Numbered from the stretch's first letter, positions 35,393 to 43,260 are shown. The stretch is 64,000 nt of DNA from a virus (IMGVR_UViG_3300027749_000073:25503-89502), one strand, 5' to 3'. The notes: a model not told the origin generated them from the letters alone. Translations and numbers: made by a program.

Positions 35393-36322
35393 ATGAAGAA
35401 AATATTTTTTATTAACGGCGGTGCCGGACGCGTACTTGCTAGCATTCCTGCATTAGAAGAAAGCCACCGTCGTAGTGAGTTAGGCGGCATTATATGCGAA
35501 GGCGGTATGGAATTTTATATGGGCCATCCAATACTGCAACATGTTGCATGGGATGTTAATCACAAAGGACTTTTTGAAAATCTAATTAAGGATAACCAAT
35601 GTGTTAGCCCTGAACCATATCGCGACTACGAATACTATAATCAGAGATCTAGTCTTCAACAAAGTTTTTGGTGGGAAATTATTGGTGAAAGAATTAACAA
35701 AAATGTTCAACCTACACTAATCTTAAATAAATCAGAAGAAATGATGGCATTAGAGATCATTGGTCAGGTGGTTCAACAGCACAAAAAAGAAAAAACTATT
35801 GTAATACAGCCATTTGGAAGATCAAGTAGTTTAAGTAACAGCAGTATTGTTTATGATCAAAGTTCTCGTAGTTTAGAACAATCGACATTTATGGAATTAG
35901 TTGCAGAATTATCAAAAGATTATAACATTATGTATATGGGTGAACATAAGTTAAATGTAGTTAATCTTCCAATATTTCAACCTGACCAACAAATGTCATT
36001 GCGTATTTGGGCAGCAATTATTGAAGCAACTGATTATTTTATTGGCTGTGATAGTGTTGGACAACATATTGCATATTCATTTAATAAACCGGGTACAATT
36101 GTATGTGGAAGTACGTTCCCTATTAATATTACCTATCCGGAACATTTTAATATTATTGAGAAAAAAGATGCAGTTCGCCAATATAGTCCAATTAGGATTG
36201 CGGGATTTGCTTCAGAAGAAGCTGATAGAATGAATGATACAATTATGGATTTTAGCAAAGAAGAGCTTAAATCTGTAATTGAAAATATCAAAGCACATAT
36301 TAAGAAAACAACAAAAGGATAA
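35393..36322 (+). CDS. GT9 (heptosyltransferase)-like glycosyltransferase (309 aa)
   Basis: The N-terminus MKKIFFINGGAGRVLASIPALEE resembles the nucleotide-sugar transferase fold. The C-terminal domain has IVIQPFGRS and, most tellingly, ATDYFIGCDSVGQHIAYSFNKPGTIVCGST. This matches the conserved D-S-x-x-x-H-x-A...P...G-S/T segment of GT9 enzymes such as ADP-heptose:LPS heptosyltransferases. GT9 enzymes add sugars to LPS or other glycans from nucleotide-activated donors. It is led by a perfect sigma70 promoter and followed three bases later by the carbamoyltransferase. The two could build and then carbamoylate a sugar. Donor and acceptor are not determinable. Confidence 0.68.
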   Translation: MKKIFFINGGAGRVLASIPALEESHRRSELGGIICEGGMEFYMGHPILQHVAWDVNHKGLFENLIKDNQCVSPEPYRDYEYYNQRSSLQQSFWWEIIGERINKNVQPTLILNKSEEMMALEIIGQVVQQHKKEKTIVIQPFGRSSSLSNSSIVYDQSSRSLEQSTFMELVAELSKDYNIMYMGEHKLNVVNLPIFQPDQQMSLRIWAAIIEATDYFIGCDSVGQHIAYSFNKPGTIVCGSTFPINITYPEHFNIIEKKDAVRQYSPIRIAGFASEEADRMNDTIMDFSKEELKSVIENIKAHIKKTTKG

Positions 36323-36325
36323 TAC

Positions 36326-38023
36326 ATGTGGTTATTAGGAATTAATGTTGGCCATAATGGGTCAGCAGCATTATATAAAGATAGTAAATTAATCTTTTAT
36401 ATTGAAGAAGATCGATTAAGTCGGTTAAAATACGACGGTAATCCGTTTTTAGGTATTGAAAAAGCATTTGAATATACTGATCATATTGATTTCGTTATAT
36501 TATGCGGCACTAGCAATGCATTTGGGAAAGTACCGTGGACTGCTGAAGATGCATATACGTGTTTAGTTAGAAAAAAACAACCTGGAATTCCTGTAGAAAC
36601 TATCAAATTAGGTGATGATCATCATATGACTCATGCAGTAACTGCGTTTTATAATTCAGGGTTTGATGATGCTGCTGCAATAGTGATTGATGGAGCCGGT
36701 AGCGGAATTAATATTCCAGATTTTGAACAAATACAACATGATACATGGGAAGTAGAATCAATTTGGTCATTGTCGTATCCTGCAGGCATCAAGAAGCATT
36801 TAGTAAACTATGGCACTAATCTTGTAGATAGTCTGTCGTTACAAGACGACGACTGTGAAATAGAAATTTCAGACGGACACGGCATTACAAAAACATACGA
36901 AGCAGTTACACAATACTTAGGATTTCATGCTATTGAAGCTGGGAAAACTATGGGTATTGCACCATATGGCAAGCCAAATGACTCTATTAAAATACACGAA
37001 GGCAGATTTAGTAATAGAAACTTAATTAAACCTAAATTTCCTGCAGGTAACGTTATTAGATGTGATTTAAATCCAGAGTTAAAAGAACATGAAGGTGACA
37101 CATCGTGGCATACTGATCCAAATTTAATTGATGATTTTAGAAAAGACTTGGCGTATGCAGTGCAAAAATCAGCCGAAGAACGAGTTAGCAATCTTATTAG
37201 AAAAACGATTGAGATCACTGGTAAAAAACAAATTGTAATGGCAGGTGGTTTTGTATTAAATTGTGTTGCAAACTATGAATTCTTAAAAGAGTTTCCAGAT
37301 GTTGAATTTTATCATGAGCCTGTAAGTCACGACGGCGGTAATGTAATGGGTGCATGCCAGCATGTATACAGAACAATGACACAGGACAGCGTTAAAGCAC
37401 CGTTAACTAGTTTATACATTGGACCTGATAATTCTGCAAATTATACAGACATTGATTTTACTGACTTTGATGTAACTGACACAACTGCAGCAGATATTGC
37501 AAAATTGATTGCAGATGAACATATTGTATGTTTATATCAAGGTAGATCAGAAGCTGGTCCTCGCGCACTAGGTAACAGAAGTATTTTGTTTGATCCATCA
37601 GTTGTTAATGGTAAAGATATAGTAAATGAAGTTAAACATAGAGAATGGTTTAGACCATTTGCAGGAACAGTATTAGCTGAAAAAGCAAATGATTGGTTTG
37701 ATTTTAGATCAAGAACTGATAGCCCATTTATGATGTATGCTGTAAATGTATTAGAAGATAAACAAAGTCTTATTCCTGCAATTACACATGTTGACGGGAC
37801 TTGCAGAATTCAAACTGTAACATCTAAACAAAATAAACATTATTACGAATTAATTAGTGAGTTTGATAAAATTAAAGATATTCCAATCTTGTTTAATACT
37901 AGCTTTAATCTAGCAGGTGATCCACTAGTCGAAACAGTTAAAGAAGCATTAGACACTTTAAGAAAATCAGATTTAAAATACTTATGGTTACCTGAAATTG
38001 GAAAATTATTATCTAAACAATAA
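36326..38023 (+). CDS. Carbamoyltransferase of the NodU/CmcH/TobZ family (565 aa)
   Basis: This is a full-length two-domain enzyme. The N-terminal Kae1-like part has LGINVGHNGSAALYKD and the metal-binding LGDDHHMTHAVTAFYNSGFD near residue 97, then VIDGAGSG, AGKTMGIAPYGKP and MAGGFVLNCVANYEF. The C-terminal YrdC-like part has GRSEAGPRALGNRSILFDP, HREWFRPFAGTVL and PILFNTSFNLAGDP. These enzymes use carbamoyl phosphate and ATP to place an O-carbamoyl group on a sugar or other hydroxyl via a carbamoyl-adenylate. Related genes occur in aquatic phages. The substrate may be the product of the neighbouring glycosyltransferase; modified-nucleotide chemistry is an alternative. Confidence 0.92.
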   Translation: MWLLGINVGHNGSAALYKDSKLIFYIEEDRLSRLKYDGNPFLGIEKAFEYTDHIDFVILCGTSNAFGKVPWTAEDAYTCLVRKKQPGIPVETIKLGDDHHMTHAVTAFYNSGFDDAAAIVIDGAGSGINIPDFEQIQHDTWEVESIWSLSYPAGIKKHLVNYGTNLVDSLSLQDDDCEIEISDGHGITKTYEAVTQYLGFHAIEAGKTMGIAPYGKPNDSIKIHEGRFSNRNLIKPKFPAGNVIRCDLNPELKEHEGDTSWHTDPNLIDDFRKDLAYAVQKSAEERVSNLIRKTIEITGKKQIVMAGGFVLNCVANYEFLKEFPDVEFYHEPVSHDGGNVMGACQHVYRTMTQDSVKAPLTSLYIGPDNSANYTDIDFTDFDVTDTTAADIAKLIADEHIVCLYQGRSEAGPRALGNRSILFDPSVVNGKDIVNEVKHREWFRPFAGTVLAEKANDWFDFRSRTDSPFMMYAVNVLEDKQSLIPAITHVDGTCRIQTVTSKQNKHYYELISEFDKIKDIPILFNTSFNLAGDPLVETVKEALDTLRKSDLKYLWLPEIGKLLSKQ

Positions 38024-38594
38024 ACGCATATTTTTTACAGGTGTGCCGGGTAGTAGATGGAGTGGTATAGCACGTACTATTGAAGATAGTATTACTAGCT
38101 TTAACACATCGGATAGATCTGTAGATAAACAATATACGCATCATGCATTTAGTGGTCACGTTGGTGCGTATTTTGGAAAAGAAATGGAATATGATTCATG
38201 TTTAGATGATCCTAATTATTTAGATTCCGCTTGGTTAACTCCGGGCGGAACTAGACTTATTAAAAGTCATGATTGGGCGTATAAATTAGATAGTATTAAA
38301 GAAGTGTATCCTAATGATTGGATTATGTTAGTATATCGACCCGATGCAAGTAGTTATGCATGGTGGTTTGAAGCAGGGGGATTTCAAATTAGTTATCCTA
38401 ATTATAGTTGGTATAAAAATCACGCTAAAATGCTAGCAGAGATTACTATACAAAATAATAATATCTTAGAATTTGGATATAAGCATAATGTAACATGGGA
38501 ATATTTTACACCTCAGTGGCTTAGTAAACAGTTTAATCAAACAGTAGAGTTTACACAAACTTGGCCAGATATATTAGTAGCAATTGTAAAATGA
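37998..38594 (+). CDS. Sulfotransferase-like P-loop protein (198 aa)
   Basis: RIFFTGVPGSRWSGIARTIE is a strand-loop-helix like the sulfotransferase PAPS loop. DWIMLVYRPDASSYAWWFE around residues 107-125 resembles the R...S segment that contacts the 3'-phosphate. The best start is a TTG at 37998, 26 nt inside the carbamoyltransferase gene, because no ATG precedes the P-loop. Weak ribosome binding suggests translational coupling. The ending overlaps the next small gene by ATGA. Its position in the sigma70-driven operon implies it acts on the same glycan as its neighbours. Confidence 0.55.
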   Translation: MENYYLNNKRIFFTGVPGSRWSGIARTIEDSITSFNTSDRSVDKQYTHHAFSGHVGAYFGKEMEYDSCLDDPNYLDSAWLTPGGTRLIKSHDWAYKLDSIKEVYPNDWIMLVYRPDASSYAWWFEAGGFQISYPNYSWYKNHAKMLAEITIQNNNILEFGYKHNVTWEYFTPQWLSKQFNQTVEFTQTWPDILVAIVK

Positions 38595-38821
38595 GAGATC
38601 ACGTCTGGTATATCAAATACGCAAGTGCAGCTACTATTCTAACTGCTATGATTTTTCATGTATTAGGACTTACTCCGTGGAATAGCATACTACAAATGAT
38701 TGGTGCTAGTGGATGGATATATGTAGGATACAGATGGAAAGAACCTGCATTACTATTCAATTTTATTCCACAGTTTTTTATTATAATTCCTGGATTAATC
38801 TATCTTTATTTTTTTAAATAA
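38591..38821 (+). CDS. Small two-to-three-helix membrane protein (76 aa)
   Basis: I place the start at ATG 38591, overlapping the upstream stop as ATGA. The product MRDHVWYIKYASAATILTAMIF...PWNSILQMIGASGWIYVGYRW...FIPQFFIIIPGLIYLYFFK has two clear and one possible hydrophobic helices. It resembles small membrane proteins annotated as DUF6552 in aquatic phages and bacteria, recalled from memory and with low certainty. It could anchor the operon's enzymes at the inner membrane or alter the envelope. Its end overlaps the convergent methyltransferase by 16 nt. Confidence 0.6.
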   Translation: MRDHVWYIKYASAATILTAMIFHVLGLTPWNSILQMIGASGWIYVGYRWKEPALLFNFIPQFFIIIPGLIYLYFFK

Positions 38822-39543
38822 ACAAAAAATAATCGATTATTATTATCTTTTTTAAATGTTTCTAATGAAAGATTATATTGCTTTGCAAAATTATATGCAA
38901 TTTCAAATGACCATGCAAAAATATCTACGTATGGTCCATTTGGATGTAATATACCTGGATTTGCTCTAATATAAATTTTGCCATTTGGAGCAAGCAACGA
39001 CACAATTTTTGAAAATCTTTGATCAATATCATCGTGCGAATTAAAATTTAACGATCCTAAAACAAGTATATGATCAAATAACAATTCTGTAATATTAAAG
39101 TCTAAAATATCAACCATATATTCAGCACAATTATTATACGGATCGATACCTATTAAATTGTGTATTCTTCCTTTAAATGGATGATATCCACAACCAACGT
39201 CTAACACTGCATTAGGCTGTTGGTTATTAATTTCATCAACTAGATTCCAACCGCTATATGTGTATGCTTCAGTTTTTGGTTTCCATATTTCACCAAAAAA
39301 TCTATTTAAATATCGAGCATCTAATGCATTTACAACTGTGTCAATCGTGCCATTAACATCTACTGTATCAAAATTTAACTCTTGTTTAATTGTATTTTGA
39401 AATTTAAGATATCTTGCAGGAGTCCATGGTAATTCGTTTATAACACTTTTTGAATTTAATTCAAGTCTTGTATTGTTATATTTTGGTAAATTGAAGGATT
39501 GTTCTAAATTTTTTATAATTAGATTAAAAATTCTAGTATTCAT
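38806..39543 (-). CDS. SAM-dependent methyltransferase (245 aa)
   Basis: I choose ATG 39543 rather than an upstream start at 39660, which would overlap the divergent di-iron gene and its promoter. Motif I is AVLDVGCGYHPFKGRI followed by LIGIDPYNNCAEY, the class I Rossmann methyltransferase signature. ILVLGSLNFNSHDDIDQRF and LAPNGKIYIRANPGILHPNGPYVD are the later core strands. The family methylates small molecules, lipids, sugars or proteins; the acceptor cannot be told. It stands alone on the minus strand inside the modification island, divergent from the ferritin-like gene. Confidence 0.75.
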   Translation of the reverse strand: MNTRIFNLIIKNLEQSFNLPKYNNTRLELNSKSVINELPWTPARYLKFQNTIKQELNFDTVDVNGTIDTVVNALDARYLNRFFGEIWKPKTEAYTYSGWNLVDEINNQQPNAVLDVGCGYHPFKGRIHNLIGIDPYNNCAEYMVDILDFNITELLFDHILVLGSLNFNSHDDIDQRFSKIVSLLAPNGKIYIRANPGILHPNGPYVDIFAWSFEIAYNFAKQYNLSLETFKKDNNNRLFFVYLKK

Positions 39544-39561
39544 TAATGATTTTCCGTATGT

Positions 39562-39569
39562 GATAAATA
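39562..39569 (+). promoter_or_regulatory. Putative T4-type late promoter (GATAAATA)
   Basis: GATAAATA lies 56 nt before the ATG of the di-iron protein gene, in the divergent spacer. Confidence 0.5.
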
Positions 39570-39625
39570 ATATTATAAAAATACAAAAATTTTGTATTAT
39601 AGTGTAATTATCAAGGAGATAATAT

Positions 39626-40324
39626 ATGTTAACAGGAAAAGAGTTTGTTGCAAAAATCAAACAAGAGAACGCTGCATTATTTAAAGCTAGCCAAATTAAT
39701 GTAAAAGCATACTTTGACAGTAACCCAAGTCAAGAAGAATTAGTTGACCATTTTATTGGTCGTATGGTTAATGAGCGCATGAATATGGTTGAAATTAGCC
39801 AAGCTATTGCAGAATTACCAGCTGATACTGATCCAGTTGAATTGCAATTATTAACACAACAAGCCCATGATGAGGCTGTACATTTTCGTCTAGTTAAAGA
39901 AGTAATTGAACACATTCAAGGTTCGCCTGTTGATGTTAATGCTGCAATTGCTGCAGAAGCTGCAAAACCTACAGCTAAAGGTGCATCGTTGTTAGCAAAA
40001 TACGGCGCAGAAACTGATCCGCTTGCGTTAGCTGCATATCAACTAATTGCCGAAGGCCGTGCTGAAGCAGTTTGGAATCAAATGGCAGAATGCATTGAAG
40101 ATACTTTTATTAGTAAATCATATGCGAAAATTGCCAAAGACGAAGGATTTCATTCTAATATTGGCGGATGGAAACTTGAAAAATTAGCAGTAGATTCAAC
40201 TACACAAGCATACGTTACAACTATTGTAGATCAAATGCGTAAAGATTTATTTGATATTAGCTGCAAAAATACACTCGAAGTTCCTGCTGCAAAACAATTA
40301 GTTACCGACGCATACGGTTGGTAA
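39626..40324 (+). CDS. Ferritin-like di-iron protein, putative oxygenase (232 aa)
   Basis: This is an all-helical protein with the carboxylate-bridged di-iron pattern. There is a Glu in RMVNERMNMVEIS, E83-x-x-H86 in QAHDEAVHF, a Glu in EGRAEAVWNQM, and E173-x-x-H176 in AKDEGFHSN. Two E/ExxH pairs separated by about 90 residues is the ferritin/ribonucleotide-reductase-like arrangement used by oxygenases and hydroxylases as well as iron stores. The spacing and lack of a storage-cage signature favour a monooxygenase or N-oxygenase, which is inference. It has a strong AAGGAGAT ribosome site, a late-promoter motif and its own terminator, so it is a single-gene unit, perhaps well expressed. Confidence 0.72.
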   Translation: MLTGKEFVAKIKQENAALFKASQINVKAYFDSNPSQEELVDHFIGRMVNERMNMVEISQAIAELPADTDPVELQLLTQQAHDEAVHFRLVKEVIEHIQGSPVDVNAAIAAEAAKPTAKGASLLAKYGAETDPLALAAYQLIAEGRAEAVWNQMAECIEDTFISKSYAKIAKDEGFHSNIGGWKLEKLAVDSTTQAYVTTIVDQMRKDLFDISCKNTLEVPAAKQLVTDAYGW

Positions 40325-40331
40325 TACACTT

Positions 40332-40356
40332 AAGACGGGGTTACTCCCGTCTTTCT
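40332..40356 (+). terminator. Rho-independent terminator after di-iron protein gene
   Basis: An 8-bp stem (AAGACGGG with CCCGTCTT) with a 6-nt loop is followed by a pyrimidine- and T-rich tail. Confidence 0.75.
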
Positions 40357-40379
40357 TTCACCTTTTTTAAAATAATAAT

Positions 40380-40808
40380 ATGAAAGCACAACGCATTTTA
40401 GTAATGGGATTGCCTGGTGCTGGCAAAACTTACTTAACATCACACATTGTAACTGAATTAAAAAACCGTAATAAACTTGTTAAATGGTTAAATGCAGACA
40501 CTATACGAGAACAATACAATGATTGGGATTTTAGTACAGAAGGTAGAATCCGTCAAAGTAAACGTATGCGAGATCTTGCAGATTTGTCAACAGATATAGA
40601 TTTTGTCATATGCGATTTTGTTGCACCATTGATTGAAATGAGAGATATTTTTGATGCAACATATGTAATCTGGGTTGATACAATTAATACATCACAATTT
40701 GCAGATACTAACAGTATGTTTATTCCTCCTCAAAATTATACATTTCGTGTTACTGAACAACACAGTGAAAAATGGGGTAAAATTATTGTGGATGATATTG
40801 TTTTATGA
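40380..40808 (+). CDS. APS-kinase (CysC)-like P-loop kinase (142 aa)
   Basis: Walker A is GLPGAGKTYL at residues 10-19. It is followed by the CysC-like segment WLNADTIREQYNDWDFSTEGRIRQSKRM and then FVICDFVAPLIEMRDIF, matching the SFISP...RD region of adenylylsulfate kinases. At 142 residues it is shorter than usual CysC (about 200). The classical ERDPKGLY region is replaced by a shorter QFADTNSMFIPP segment. CysC makes PAPS from APS and ATP; close relatives phosphorylate other nucleotides, such as the CDP-linked intermediate in Campylobacter phosphoramidate synthesis. It heads a four-gene ATGA-coupled operon with two P-loop proteins and an amidotransferase. Confidence 0.72.
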   Translation: MKAQRILVMGLPGAGKTYLTSHIVTELKNRNKLVKWLNADTIREQYNDWDFSTEGRIRQSKRMRDLADLSTDIDFVICDFVAPLIEMRDIFDATYVIWVDTINTSQFADTNSMFIPPQNYTFRVTEQHSEKWGKIIVDDIVL

Positions 40809-41431
40809 AACAACTGTTATTGTTAACTGGACCTCAAGGTGCCGGAAATCATTTATGGAGCAAAATTTTTAGTTTACATCCCGAGGTATATGGATGGAAA
40901 ACATTATTAGAAAACTATTGGGAAGCACATAGATTTGCAGAACCGTTTTGTAATTATTGGAAAGATCACAGTTTATTAGATACATTTGATTGGTCACAAA
41001 GTAATTTTTACTTTACTAGTATTAGTTGCCCATTAGGAATACAAGAACATAAATGGATGCCTGATATTGCAGGATTTACTGCTGCAGTTGAACAACATAA
41101 GGTTAATGTAACTATCGTAGTTTGCGGACGTGATCAAACTATTTTAGAAAATCAACAAATTAGATTAAGAAGTGAACATACCTTTCCGCTGTTTATGGAA
41201 CAGTTACTTACTTTTAAGCAGCCAATATTTTTAAGTTATGAGTTGTTGTATTTGTATAAAGAAAAGTATTTACAAAGTCTTAATCTTAATATTCCAATTG
41301 CGTACAATGATACCCGTATATACAAAATACTTAAAGATGACAGTAATAAAAAATATATACATTATGTTGATAATTATATTCTTGACCAATGTAATAAAAC
41401 TGGGATTCCTTTAAAAGAGCTACCAAAATGA
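40805..41431 (+). CDS. Sulfotransferase-like P-loop protein, tandem copy 1 (208 aa)
   Basis: The N-terminus LLLLTGPQGAGNHLWSKIFSLHP is a P-loop-like strand-loop-helix. VTIVVCGRDQTILENQQIRLR near residues 100-120 resembles the R...(S/N) nucleotide-contact segment of sulfotransferases. It is a clear paralogue of the next gene: the same TGPQG(A/S)GNH start, GWK.LL...YW, ISCP/VSCP, RDQTI and a C-terminal DxNSKY-type segment. I recognise this TGPQGxGNH family from other aquatic T4-like phages. Start and stop overlap both neighbours as ATGA. The activity is unproven; transfer of sulfate or another activated group is possible. Confidence 0.6.
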   Translation: MKQLLLLTGPQGAGNHLWSKIFSLHPEVYGWKTLLENYWEAHRFAEPFCNYWKDHSLLDTFDWSQSNFYFTSISCPLGIQEHKWMPDIAGFTAAVEQHKVNVTIVVCGRDQTILENQQIRLRSEHTFPLFMEQLLTFKQPIFLSYELLYLYKEKYLQSLNLNIPIAYNDTRIYKILKDDSNKKYIHYVDNYILDQCNKTGIPLKELPK

Positions 41432-42069
41432 AAAAACTTTTAATATTAACAGGGCCGCAAGGATCAGGTAATCATATTTTTAGTAGAGTATTAAGCACAC
41501 ATCCTAACGTTGGCGGATGGAAAGAATTACTAAGTAGCTATTGGATTCCTAGTGACCAAGAAACATTTGCAAAATTTTGGGTATATCCAGAACTATTAAC
41601 AGAACAAGATTTTGATGGATTTGATTTTTGGCTTGCAAATGTTAGTTGCCCTTTTTTCTACGACGGAATAAGATATGTTCCAAAGATATTAGAAGTAGCC
41701 AATCGCGCGTCGTTGTTTGGTATAACAGTTGAAATTGCAATCGTAGTTAGAGATCAAACCATTAACTCACTCCAACAAGAGCGTGTAGGCGGCCAAATTA
41801 CACTATCAATTGCTCAGGATTATTATTATACTACCTTAGTACCAAGCAACTACAAAATACATTTCATAGATCACGAAGCCTTCTTTTTACATAAGTCGTA
41901 CTATCTAAAATGGTTAAGTTCTATCCTTGATTTTCCTATTTTATACGACAGCAATGAAGTAATGAAATTTATAGAAACTGATGCTAATTCTAAATATGTA
42001 CAATCAATTGAGACACACTGGCTTGATAGTGAAATTAGACACGGTCGTAAACCGTTTACTGATCGATGA
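41428..42069 (+). CDS. Sulfotransferase-like P-loop protein, tandem copy 2 (213 aa)
   Basis: A paralogue of the preceding gene, beginning LLILTGPQGSGNHIFSRVLSTHP. It continues GGWKELLSSYW, LANVSCPFFYDG and VEIAIVVRDQTINSLQQERV, and ends near DANSKYVQSIETHWLD. The conserved RDQT segment and the GNH P-loop suggest the same nucleotide or PAPS ligand, while the central region differs, which may change the acceptor. Its ATG overlaps the stop of copy 1 and its stop overlaps the amidotransferase start. The four proteins are therefore probably made together in fixed proportion. Confidence 0.6.
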   Translation: MKKLLILTGPQGSGNHIFSRVLSTHPNVGGWKELLSSYWIPSDQETFAKFWVYPELLTEQDFDGFDFWLANVSCPFFYDGIRYVPKILEVANRASLFGITVEIAIVVRDQTINSLQQERVGGQITLSIAQDYYYTTLVPSNYKIHFIDHEAFFLHKSYYLKWLSSILDFPILYDSNEVMKFIETDANSKYVQSIETHWLDSEIRHGRKPFTDR

Positions 42070-42614
42070 ACATAGGGTTAAGTCAAAGGATTTGGTATGA
42101 CAAAGGACTGTCTTATGATGCACTCGATAGTTCTTGGTATTCATTTTTAAAAGATCATCAAATAACTGCTATTCAAAATCGAATTGATCAAAATTTTGAT
42201 TACCTTGCAGATACACTTGATAGTTTTATCATTACTGGTGGCAATGATGCATCTATTAGAAGAATAGTTGAAATTAAATTAGCTACTGCAATGATGATAC
42301 GAGGTAAACCTGTTTTAGGCATTTGTCATGGTGCATTTTTATTAACTGAACTGTTAGGTGGCACTATCATGTTGTGCAATAATCATACAGATACTAATCA
42401 CATAGTAATTATAGATAACACTAGCATAATGGTTAATTCATTTCATACATTGCAAATAACTAACCCTCCGCCTGCTGCAACAGTATTGGCAGTTGATACA
42501 GAGGGGTATTGTGAATCGTGGATTGATAACTCATTAGCTGGTATAGTGTGGCATCCTGAAAGAATGAAATTTCCAGTTGTGCCTAACGACATTACAGTAT
42601 TACTGCATATTTGA
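42066..42614 (+). CDS. Class I glutamine amidotransferase (182 aa)
   Basis: The triad is complete: nucleophile Cys87 in LGICHGAF, His163 and Glu165 in GIVWHPER, with the FIITGGND oxyanion region near residue 55. The start IGLSQRI...DALDSSWYSFL and the VNSFHTL strand resemble gamma-glutamyl hydrolases of the PuuD/Cj1417 type rather than biosynthetic GATases. Cj1417 frees a CDP-phosphoramidate from its gamma-glutamyl form in Campylobacter capsule synthesis. That pathway also uses a CysC-like kinase, and one sits three genes upstream here. No fused synthase domain is present. It converges on the HAD gene with a 15-nt overlap. Confidence 0.78.
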   Translation: MNIGLSQRIWYDKGLSYDALDSSWYSFLKDHQITAIQNRIDQNFDYLADTLDSFIITGGNDASIRRIVEIKLATAMMIRGKPVLGICHGAFLLTELLGGTIMLCNNHTDTNHIVIIDNTSIMVNSFHTLQITNPPPAATVLAVDTEGYCESWIDNSLAGIVWHPERMKFPVVPNDITVLLHI

Positions 42615-43172
42615 ATCTAAAGATTTAGCAAAATCTAATAGATTAGGAAATTCACTAGCATTGCTACCAACTGGTAGTTTTACTGATCCGTTGTTAATTA
42701 ATACTGGCGATGATTTTACTTTTGATGCTGCTTTAACATCAGCAGCTGACGAACCAATATAAATTGAATCTTTCCAAATAATCATATTTTCTTTTTGTGC
42801 TCGATCAAACATAGCTGTGTTTGGTTTAACATAGTCATCATGTTTGTCAGTACCAGGTGCAAAATACACATTTTTTATTCTTCCACCTGATTGTTGAATA
42901 AATTCAGTTACTGATCCAATGATATTTTCAAAATCTTGTTGTTGTAAATTCTTAGTACGTAACGTAGGTTGCCCACTAATAATTAAAAAATCATAACCCT
43001 TTCTTACTAATGTTTGAATTGCTAACTCTGCCCCTTCAAATATTTGTAACTGATCACCAGGTGTAAATGCAGTTGAGTTATCAAGTAATACTCCAAATAT
43101 TTCTAAGCCAATTACTTTGCGATTTGCCTGCAGTTCCCATACATCTTTAACATATTTTAAATATCGGTTCAT
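42600..43172 (-). CDS. HAD-superfamily protein, catalytically degenerate (190 aa)
   Basis: The start is ATG 43172, with ACGGAG upstream. The layout follows histidinol-phosphatase/GmhB-type HAD proteins: motif I region IGLEIFGVLLD, then YDFLIISGQPTLR, then VKPNTAMFDRAQKE and YIGSSAADVKAA. Motif I should be D-x-D-G but reads E24-I-F26-G. Motif IV should be GDxxxD but reads GSSAAD. The nucleophile and a metal ligand are thus replaced, so the protein may be a binding or regulatory pseudoenzyme. The motif II polar residue (S of ISGQ) and motif III Lys (VKPN) remain. It is convergent with the amidotransferase and presumably part of the same cassette. Confidence 0.65.
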   Translation of the reverse strand: MNRYLKYVKDVWELQANRKVIGLEIFGVLLDNSTAFTPGDQLQIFEGAELAIQTLVRKGYDFLIISGQPTLRTKNLQQQDFENIIGSVTEFIQQSGGRIKNVYFAPGTDKHDDYVKPNTAMFDRAQKENMIIWKDSIYIGSSAADVKAASKVKSSPVLINNGSVKLPVGSNASEFPNLLDFAKSLDSNMQ

Positions 43173-43228
43173 ATATACTCCGTGTTGTGAAATATTTAGT
43201 AAGCAACAATATTTACGCCTTGCTTTTT

Positions 43229-43236
43229 GATAAATA
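43229..43236 (+). promoter_or_regulatory. Putative T4-type late promoter (GATAAATA)
   Basis: GATAAATA lies 24 nt before ATG 43261, where the window returns from accessory to virion genes. Confidence 0.55.
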
Positions 43237-43260
43237 TAAGATAATGAATGGTGCATATAT

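Follow-up and report, generated by a model that had tools for sequence, protein, structure and literature searches.

The DNA considered here, referred to as the window, is a 64,000-nucleotide stretch (IMGVR_UViG_3300027749_000073:25503-89502) that corresponds to positions 25503-89502 of an 89.5-kb virus contig. The phage is read as T4-like; in keeping with this, phrog_138 and phrog_213 are the phage families matched by the major head protein and the portal protein. The genes at 37998-43256 of the window are centered on two open reading frames (ORFs), one for a predicted ferritin-like diiron protein (FERR) and one for a class I glutamine-amidotransferase-type hydrolase (GATase); the full set is as follows, in window positions.

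37998-38594, plus strand: PL0, sulfotransferase-family-like P-loop protein
38806-39543, minus strand: MT, methyltransferase-like protein, divergent from FERR
39626-40324, plus strand: FERR, predicted ferritin-like diiron protein (232 aa)
40380-40808, plus strand: KIN, P-loop kinase (142 aa) resembling adenosine 5'-phosphosulfate (APS) kinase but lidless
40805-41431, plus strand: PL1, P-loop protein (208 aa), by sequence comparison a paralogue of PL2 (33% identity)
41428-42069, plus strand: PL2, P-loop protein (213 aa)
42066-42614, plus strand: GATase (182 aa)
42600-43256, minus strand: HAD-IIIA-like protein whose motif I is altered; considered to lie outside the cassette

Successive plus-strand ORFs from 40380 to 42614 overlap by 4 bases at each junction, and homologues of all four are present in other phage contigs, so they are not chance ORFs. 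An earlier, sequence-only reading of this DNA had described four plus-strand genes joined by ATGA overlaps and closed by a convergent minus-strand gene, and the ORF calls place them exactly so; the limits it drew were too narrow, however, as conserved partners lie upstream at 37998-38594, 38806-39543, and 39626-40324. The last of these, FERR, was left out of the unit altogether, yet it proves to be the usual partner of the GATase.

This partnership emerges from comparison of phage GATase loci, in which ORFs were clustered, one locus was kept per distinct GATase (identical last 150 residues), and counts took in the six genes before and the eight after each GATase. FERR accompanies 71 of the 81 distinct phage GATases, a figure that may be inflated because FERR served as the query for fetching some of the loci; MT lies beside 60, on the opposite strand, PL0 is near 58, PL2 near 47, and a gene for a 2-oxoglutarate-dependent oxygenase (2OG) near 46. 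Rarer neighbors are TctC (30), KIN (21), a cupin (14), and TctA (10). FERR is usually directly 5' of the GATase, with a median gap of 1 base (108 pairs, duplicates counted), and relatives passing the scans number 170 for GATase and 287 for FERR. The window is thereby shown to carry one version of a modular phage cassette with a FERR-GATase core, in which TctC and KIN are optional; the FERR-GATase pair with its conserved company is the strongest new fact of this analysis. In L126 and L171 the core stands with no other cassette genes close by, and FERR is missing from a small group of GATase loci (L139, L157-L159, L167, L176-L178). A further FERR-less GATase of the cassette kind (L016), 33% identical to that of the window, lies between TctC and PL0-2OG-fusion; the 2OG oxygenase conserves HxD...H and PL0 conserves KSH. 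Cassettes with KIN nearly all contain PL0 (20/21, as against 41/60 of those without KIN), although the associated p = 0.017 overstates the link because the rows are related. Genes for the TctA and TctC transporter components are found within phage cassettes at L155:7035-8489 and other loci.

The literature on phage diiron/amidotransferase, sulfotransferase, and TctC combinations yielded no description of the cassette; a paper on an OM43 phage reports GATase (PF13522, with an amidoligase), 2OG, and sulfotransferase genes, which do not form this cassette. The gene cassette is widespread and apparently undescribed, and FERR-GATase, carried by many environmental phages, would give large aquatic phages an additional metabolic function. 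A scan of genome contigs returned a single match, to a contig filed as Nitrosopumilaceae (CALCPD010000071.1, L085:1-12723), a metagenome-assembled genome, where a phage-like stretch carries cupin, PL2, FERR, and GATase. Within one 660-aa ORF the phage-like part joins archaeal CCA-adding-enzyme-like sequence (judged by eye); a cellular origin of these genes was rejected, as the contig looks chimeric.

FERR is predicted to be a ferritin-like diiron protein from its ligand set and helical model. The ligand pattern E50, E83xxH86, E143, E173xxH176 is invariant in 49 aligned sequences, and the AlphaFold2 (AF2) model, a helical bundle with pLDDT 95.8, presents the four-carboxylate, two-histidine ligand set of ferritin-like diiron proteins. 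The bundle and the E, ExxH, E, ExxH order of ligands are shared with helical diiron oxygenases (UndA, PolF, and CADD) and with rubrerythrin/ferritin-like proteins, but matches of the model to structures in the PDB (TenA/UndA/PolF/CADD-type folds and thioferritin) are weak, none being below 1e-3, and in BFVD the model matches a phage protein with a rubrerythrin domain (1.2e-2). FERR has no Pfam, NCBIfam, or PHROGs assignment above cut-off, and tblastn searches of 50,697 phage records and 72,556 plasmid records match neither FERR nor PL2.

The GATase matches the Peptidase_C26 and GATase models and has an intact Cys-His-Glu catalytic triad (C87, H163, E165); the catalytic Cys and His are kept in 148 of 156 phage GATase ORFs. 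The other copies, with Cys replaced by Ala and His by Asn, form two sets (L147, L148, L258, L259; L181, L184, L185, L186), and in L186, the only member of the second set with neighbors listed, the triad-lost GATase is the sole copy and has no FERR neighbor. The best NCBIfam model is NF045546 (gamma-glutamyl-CDP-amidate hydrolase; 59.2 bits, 5.5e-16), followed by GMP synthase (33 bits, 4e-8). This score falls far short of the NF045546 equivalog cut-off of 250 bits, which speaks against membership of the Cj1417 type, and proves little by itself because weak matches to the model occur in 14 of 14 control genomes; three plasmid-operon GATases that were scanned also stay below the cut-off, at 75-105 bits.

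Relatives of the window GATase on plasmids, which are about 30% identical to it, provide a second line of comparison. Eight top matches were opened (H13, H15, H17, H19-H23, leaving out H14, H16, and H18), and in all eight a cytidylyltransferase-type or phosphoenolpyruvate (PEP)-utilizing, glutamine-kinase-type enzyme is encoded directly beside the GATase. A gene of the PEP-utilizing/pyruvate-phosphate-dikinase type is directly 5' of the GATase in seven; in the eighth, from Azospirillum TSA2s, a tetratricopeptide gene precedes the GATase and the PEP-utilizing enzyme is a few genes off. The gene after the GATase belongs to the phosphocholine cytidylyltransferase family in seven operons and is annotated as hypothetical in Smac51. 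NF004508, a family that we infer from operon position to be probably glutamine kinase, is matched by the Pseudohalocynthiibacter PEP enzyme at 849 bits. These phosphoramidate-type plasmid operons (L094-L101) come from Vibrio alfacsensis, Azospirillum, Agrobacterium vitis, Pseudohalocynthiibacter, and a deltaproteobacterium. According to a 2019 review, the phosphoramidate modification had been identified in Campylobacter only. Weaker plasmid matches (H24, H26, H27) have the GATase in other settings. With the divergent phage GATases L016 and L171 as queries the operon proteins lead again, a Dinoroseobacter GATase with an amidoligase neighbor ranking close behind them for L016.

The phage and operon GATases have in common an N-terminal QR..D.L...W signature and a WHPER motif, and trees built without Campylobacter sequences group them with support of 88/87 and 90/82, although the approximately unbiased (AU) test leaves a grouping of the phage proteins with PuuD unrejected (p 0.44). 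By sequence, then, the GATase appears nearer to the Cj1417-type gamma-glutamyl-CDP-amidate hydrolases than to PuuD or GMP synthase: like them it is a short, single-domain class I protein with a C-H-E triad, but it differs in its low score, in having a diiron protein as partner, and in the lack of a glutamine kinase in the records searched. The earlier designation as PuuD/Cj1417-type therefore stands as a resemblance supported by the best model and the operon neighbors, while the score and the AU test keep it from being a membership. A separate arrangement is seen in a GenBank phage of the Zobellviridae (L102:7824-13760), where a GATase lies near amidoligase, COOH.NH2 ligase, and ATP-grasp genes that apparently constitute another GATase-based set.

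The P-loop proteins resemble sulfotransferases dependent on 3'-phosphoadenosine 5'-phosphosulfate (PAPS), of the tyrosylprotein type, in fold and in particular residues, but sequence similarity is very low and no Pfam match exceeds its cut-off. The PL0 family has the signature PGSKWSS and RI.KSH, a KTH-like motif; the 5'-phosphosulfate-binding (5'-PSB) loop and KSH of PAPS sulfotransferases are therefore present, but the Ser that contacts the 3'-phosphate is not. One PL0 relative (L002:11523) matches Pfam Sulfotransfer_3 at 7e-4, under the curated cut-off. PL2 has an invariant GPQGxGNH loop and R108...Q116, which place an Arg at the 3'-phosphate site and a Gln at the Ser position. The best PDB match of its AF2 model (pLDDT 93.6) is tyrosylprotein sulfotransferase TPST1 with 3'-phosphoadenosine 5'-phosphate (PAP) (1.6e-5, TM 0.48), followed closely by adenylate kinases. 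Profiles of PL0 and PL2 show no significant match to the bacterial sulfotransferases tested. MT has a conserved VlDvGCGy motif and only weak matches to Pfam Methyltransf models; its ORF is called from 39660, and the conserved start, MNTRIF, is at about 39543.

KIN matches APS_kinase at 5.8e-10 and retains Walker A, the NAD/DGD-x-x-R region, and the F-[VI]-[AS]-P motif, all of which it has in common with CysC and with the PRK05541-kind kinases of the phosphoramidate-type operons, to which Cj1415 is compared by analogy. The CysC lid/APS-binding segment (RDPKGLYKKA...FTGIDSPYE) is missing from the KIN alignment, which makes APS doubtful as a substrate. In the kinase tree KIN falls outside the group formed by four CysC and four operon kinases (100/100), and it scores 40 bits on the PRK05541-kind model, the cut-off being 127. 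The likening of the kinase to Cj1415 in the sequence-only reading did not hold: the separate clade and the missing lid led to rejection of KIN as a Cj1415-like kinase.

In many other phages the counterpart of KIN makes up the N-terminal half of a longer protein (265 aa), fused there to an HxGH nucleotidyltransferase; the GATase loci hold 18 short and 21 fused ORFs (duplicates counted). Of 46 GATase-bearing records, 25 contain the kinase, a count in which two or three matches involve just the nucleotidyltransferase half. NadR-like salvage by the fusion, suggested by matches resembling nicotinamide mononucleotide adenylyltransferase (NMNAT), was set aside, the kinase half being closer to APS kinases. 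Neighbors of KIN in other phage loci are mixed (radical SAM, cytidylyltransferase-like, deaminase, PTPS, and sulfotransferase genes) and indicate no single pathway. Of the bacterial KIN relatives, four were inspected: a sulfotransferase gene lies next to or some kilobases from three of them, and the fourth is in a polysaccharide region. On a Rhodoferax ferrireducens plasmid (L263:6513-8576) a tail-fiber assembly gene, a sulfotransferase gene, and a lidless kinase gene are consecutive. Two virome papers count cysC among sulfur genes. In light of the lidless clade, some viral genes assigned to sulfur metabolism as cysC may be members of it, and APS may not be their substrate; claims of sulfate assimilation by viruses would then be affected.

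The best explanation of the cassette, held tentatively and at a little under an even chance, is an oxygenase/deglutamylase core, FERR-GATase, feeding an optional group-transfer module. FERR would oxidize a small nitrogen compound carried as a gamma-glutamyl amide, and GATase would release the compound from that amide. Less firmly, the optional KIN might make a 3'-phosphonucleotide donor that the P-loop proteins use to attach sulfate or the core product to an acceptor, perhaps a surface polymer of the host or a protein of the virion. The logic of the core is that of bacterial operons in which an oxygenase accompanies a gamma-glutamyl hydrolase; in Microbacterium and Paenarthrobacter, which supply the precedent, GATase genes have genes for a glutamine-synthetase-like ligase and a P450 as neighbors. 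PuuD-type hydrolases of amine-oxidation operons are paired with an oxygenase in the same way, but those operons contribute the ligase and P450, and the phage GATase is less close to them in sequence than to the phosphoramidate-type operon GATases.

Several observations weigh against an oxygenase/deglutamylase core with a transfer module. No gamma-glutamyl ligase is recognized in the cassettes, so the host would have to supply the gamma-glutamyl carrier. Oxygenase activity of FERR rests on fold and ligand pattern, given the lack of a PDB match below 1e-3, and its neighbor count may carry the query bias described above. PL1 and PL2 have little sequence in common with sulfotransferases, resemble adenylate kinases almost as closely, and have Gln at the expected 3'-phosphate Ser. 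The window's own cassette is without a 2OG gene and TctC, and KIN is missing near 60 of the 81 GATases. A fully phage-specific pathway, in which a new diiron oxygenase family and a gamma-glutamyl hydrolase make an oxidized or otherwise reactive small nitrogen group that is then transferred by sulfotransferase-like proteins to a target on the host surface or the virion, is put forward as a rather unlikely proposal.

Two unrelated, adjacent units could instead be present, with the kinase and P-loop proteins sulfating a surface glycan or tail protein via PAPS and FERR-GATase acting independently; we consider this unlikely. The occurrence of KIN relatives near sulfotransferases, one of them beside the Rhodoferax tail-fiber assembly gene, agrees with such a division, as do the KSH motif of PL0 and the phages in which FERR-GATase stands alone, but the frequency of PL0 and PL2 near phage GATases argues for a link between the two parts, and a kinase without the CysC lid is a doubtful source of PAPS from APS. 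The alternative entertained in the sequence-only reading, PAPS synthesis and sulfation with an unrelated GATase, may be partly right in its kinase and P-loop half.

A pathway like that for the O-methyl phosphoramidate (MeOPN) of Campylobacter (PMC6429109), in which GATase would free a nucleoside monophosphate-phosphoramidate from its gamma-glutamyl form, the kinase would phosphorylate the 3'-OH, and the P-loop proteins would transfer the phosphoramidate, is improbable. It has in its favor the nearness of the GATase to NF045546 and, for three divergent phage queries, to GATases of operons with PEP enzyme and cytidylyltransferase, together with their shared motifs and tree grouping (90/82), and the fusion of KIN to a nucleotidyltransferase domain. 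Against it, KIN is outside the clade of the operon kinases, and FERR, the usual partner, has no place in the pathway as described. Searches for glutamine kinase were negative in 41 fusion-bearing phage records (one protein query, without a positive control) and, with NF004508, in 46 records nearly all chosen for GATase; the two sets, which both include the window's record and that of L002, comprise 85 records of up to 525 kb, many of them fragments. The enzyme is likewise absent from the 89.5-kb record, which may be incomplete, the search having covered phage records and not the host; the first 25 kb, outside the window, hold no recognizable glutamine kinase among ORF translations. No LicC-type cytidylyltransferase was detected among the 41 fusion-bearing records, the window's included (one plasmid protein query, without a positive control). 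The earlier proposal that the phage makes or remodels a phosphoramidate-like group, with Cj1418-like and Cj1416-like partners to be sought elsewhere in the genome, consequently loses its kinase link and partner genes and keeps only the GATase resemblance; the chemistry of the cassette looks different from that of this bacterial capsule decoration.

Least probable is nutrient acquisition, in which TctC/TctA would import an organic acid or amide for degradation by FERR, 2OG, and GATase on behalf of the infected cell: TctC and TctA (the latter above its Pfam cut-off) do occur in 30 and 10 of the 81 cassettes and amine-catabolism-like operons do pair GATase with an oxygenase, but the P-loop proteins, methyltransferase, and kinase are left unexplained and TctC is absent from most cassettes, including that of the window.

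The convergent gene at the 3' end of the window's cassette encodes a protein that matches HAD-IIIA/GmhB models. Residues 52-54, its motif I, were read by eye as E-I-F rather than the family D-x-D, which may leave it inactive as a phosphatase. The sequence-only reading had counted it as part of the cassette; it was rejected as a member, since among the phage GATase loci compared it adjoins the GATase in the window only.

At the other end, a phrog_8954 gene and then a NodU-like carbamoyltransferase gene occupy 35393-38023, directly 5' of PL0, which overlaps the carbamoyltransferase gene (36326-38023). Homologues of the phrog_8954 gene and the NodU-like carbamoyltransferase gene are also found together in another locus, L013.

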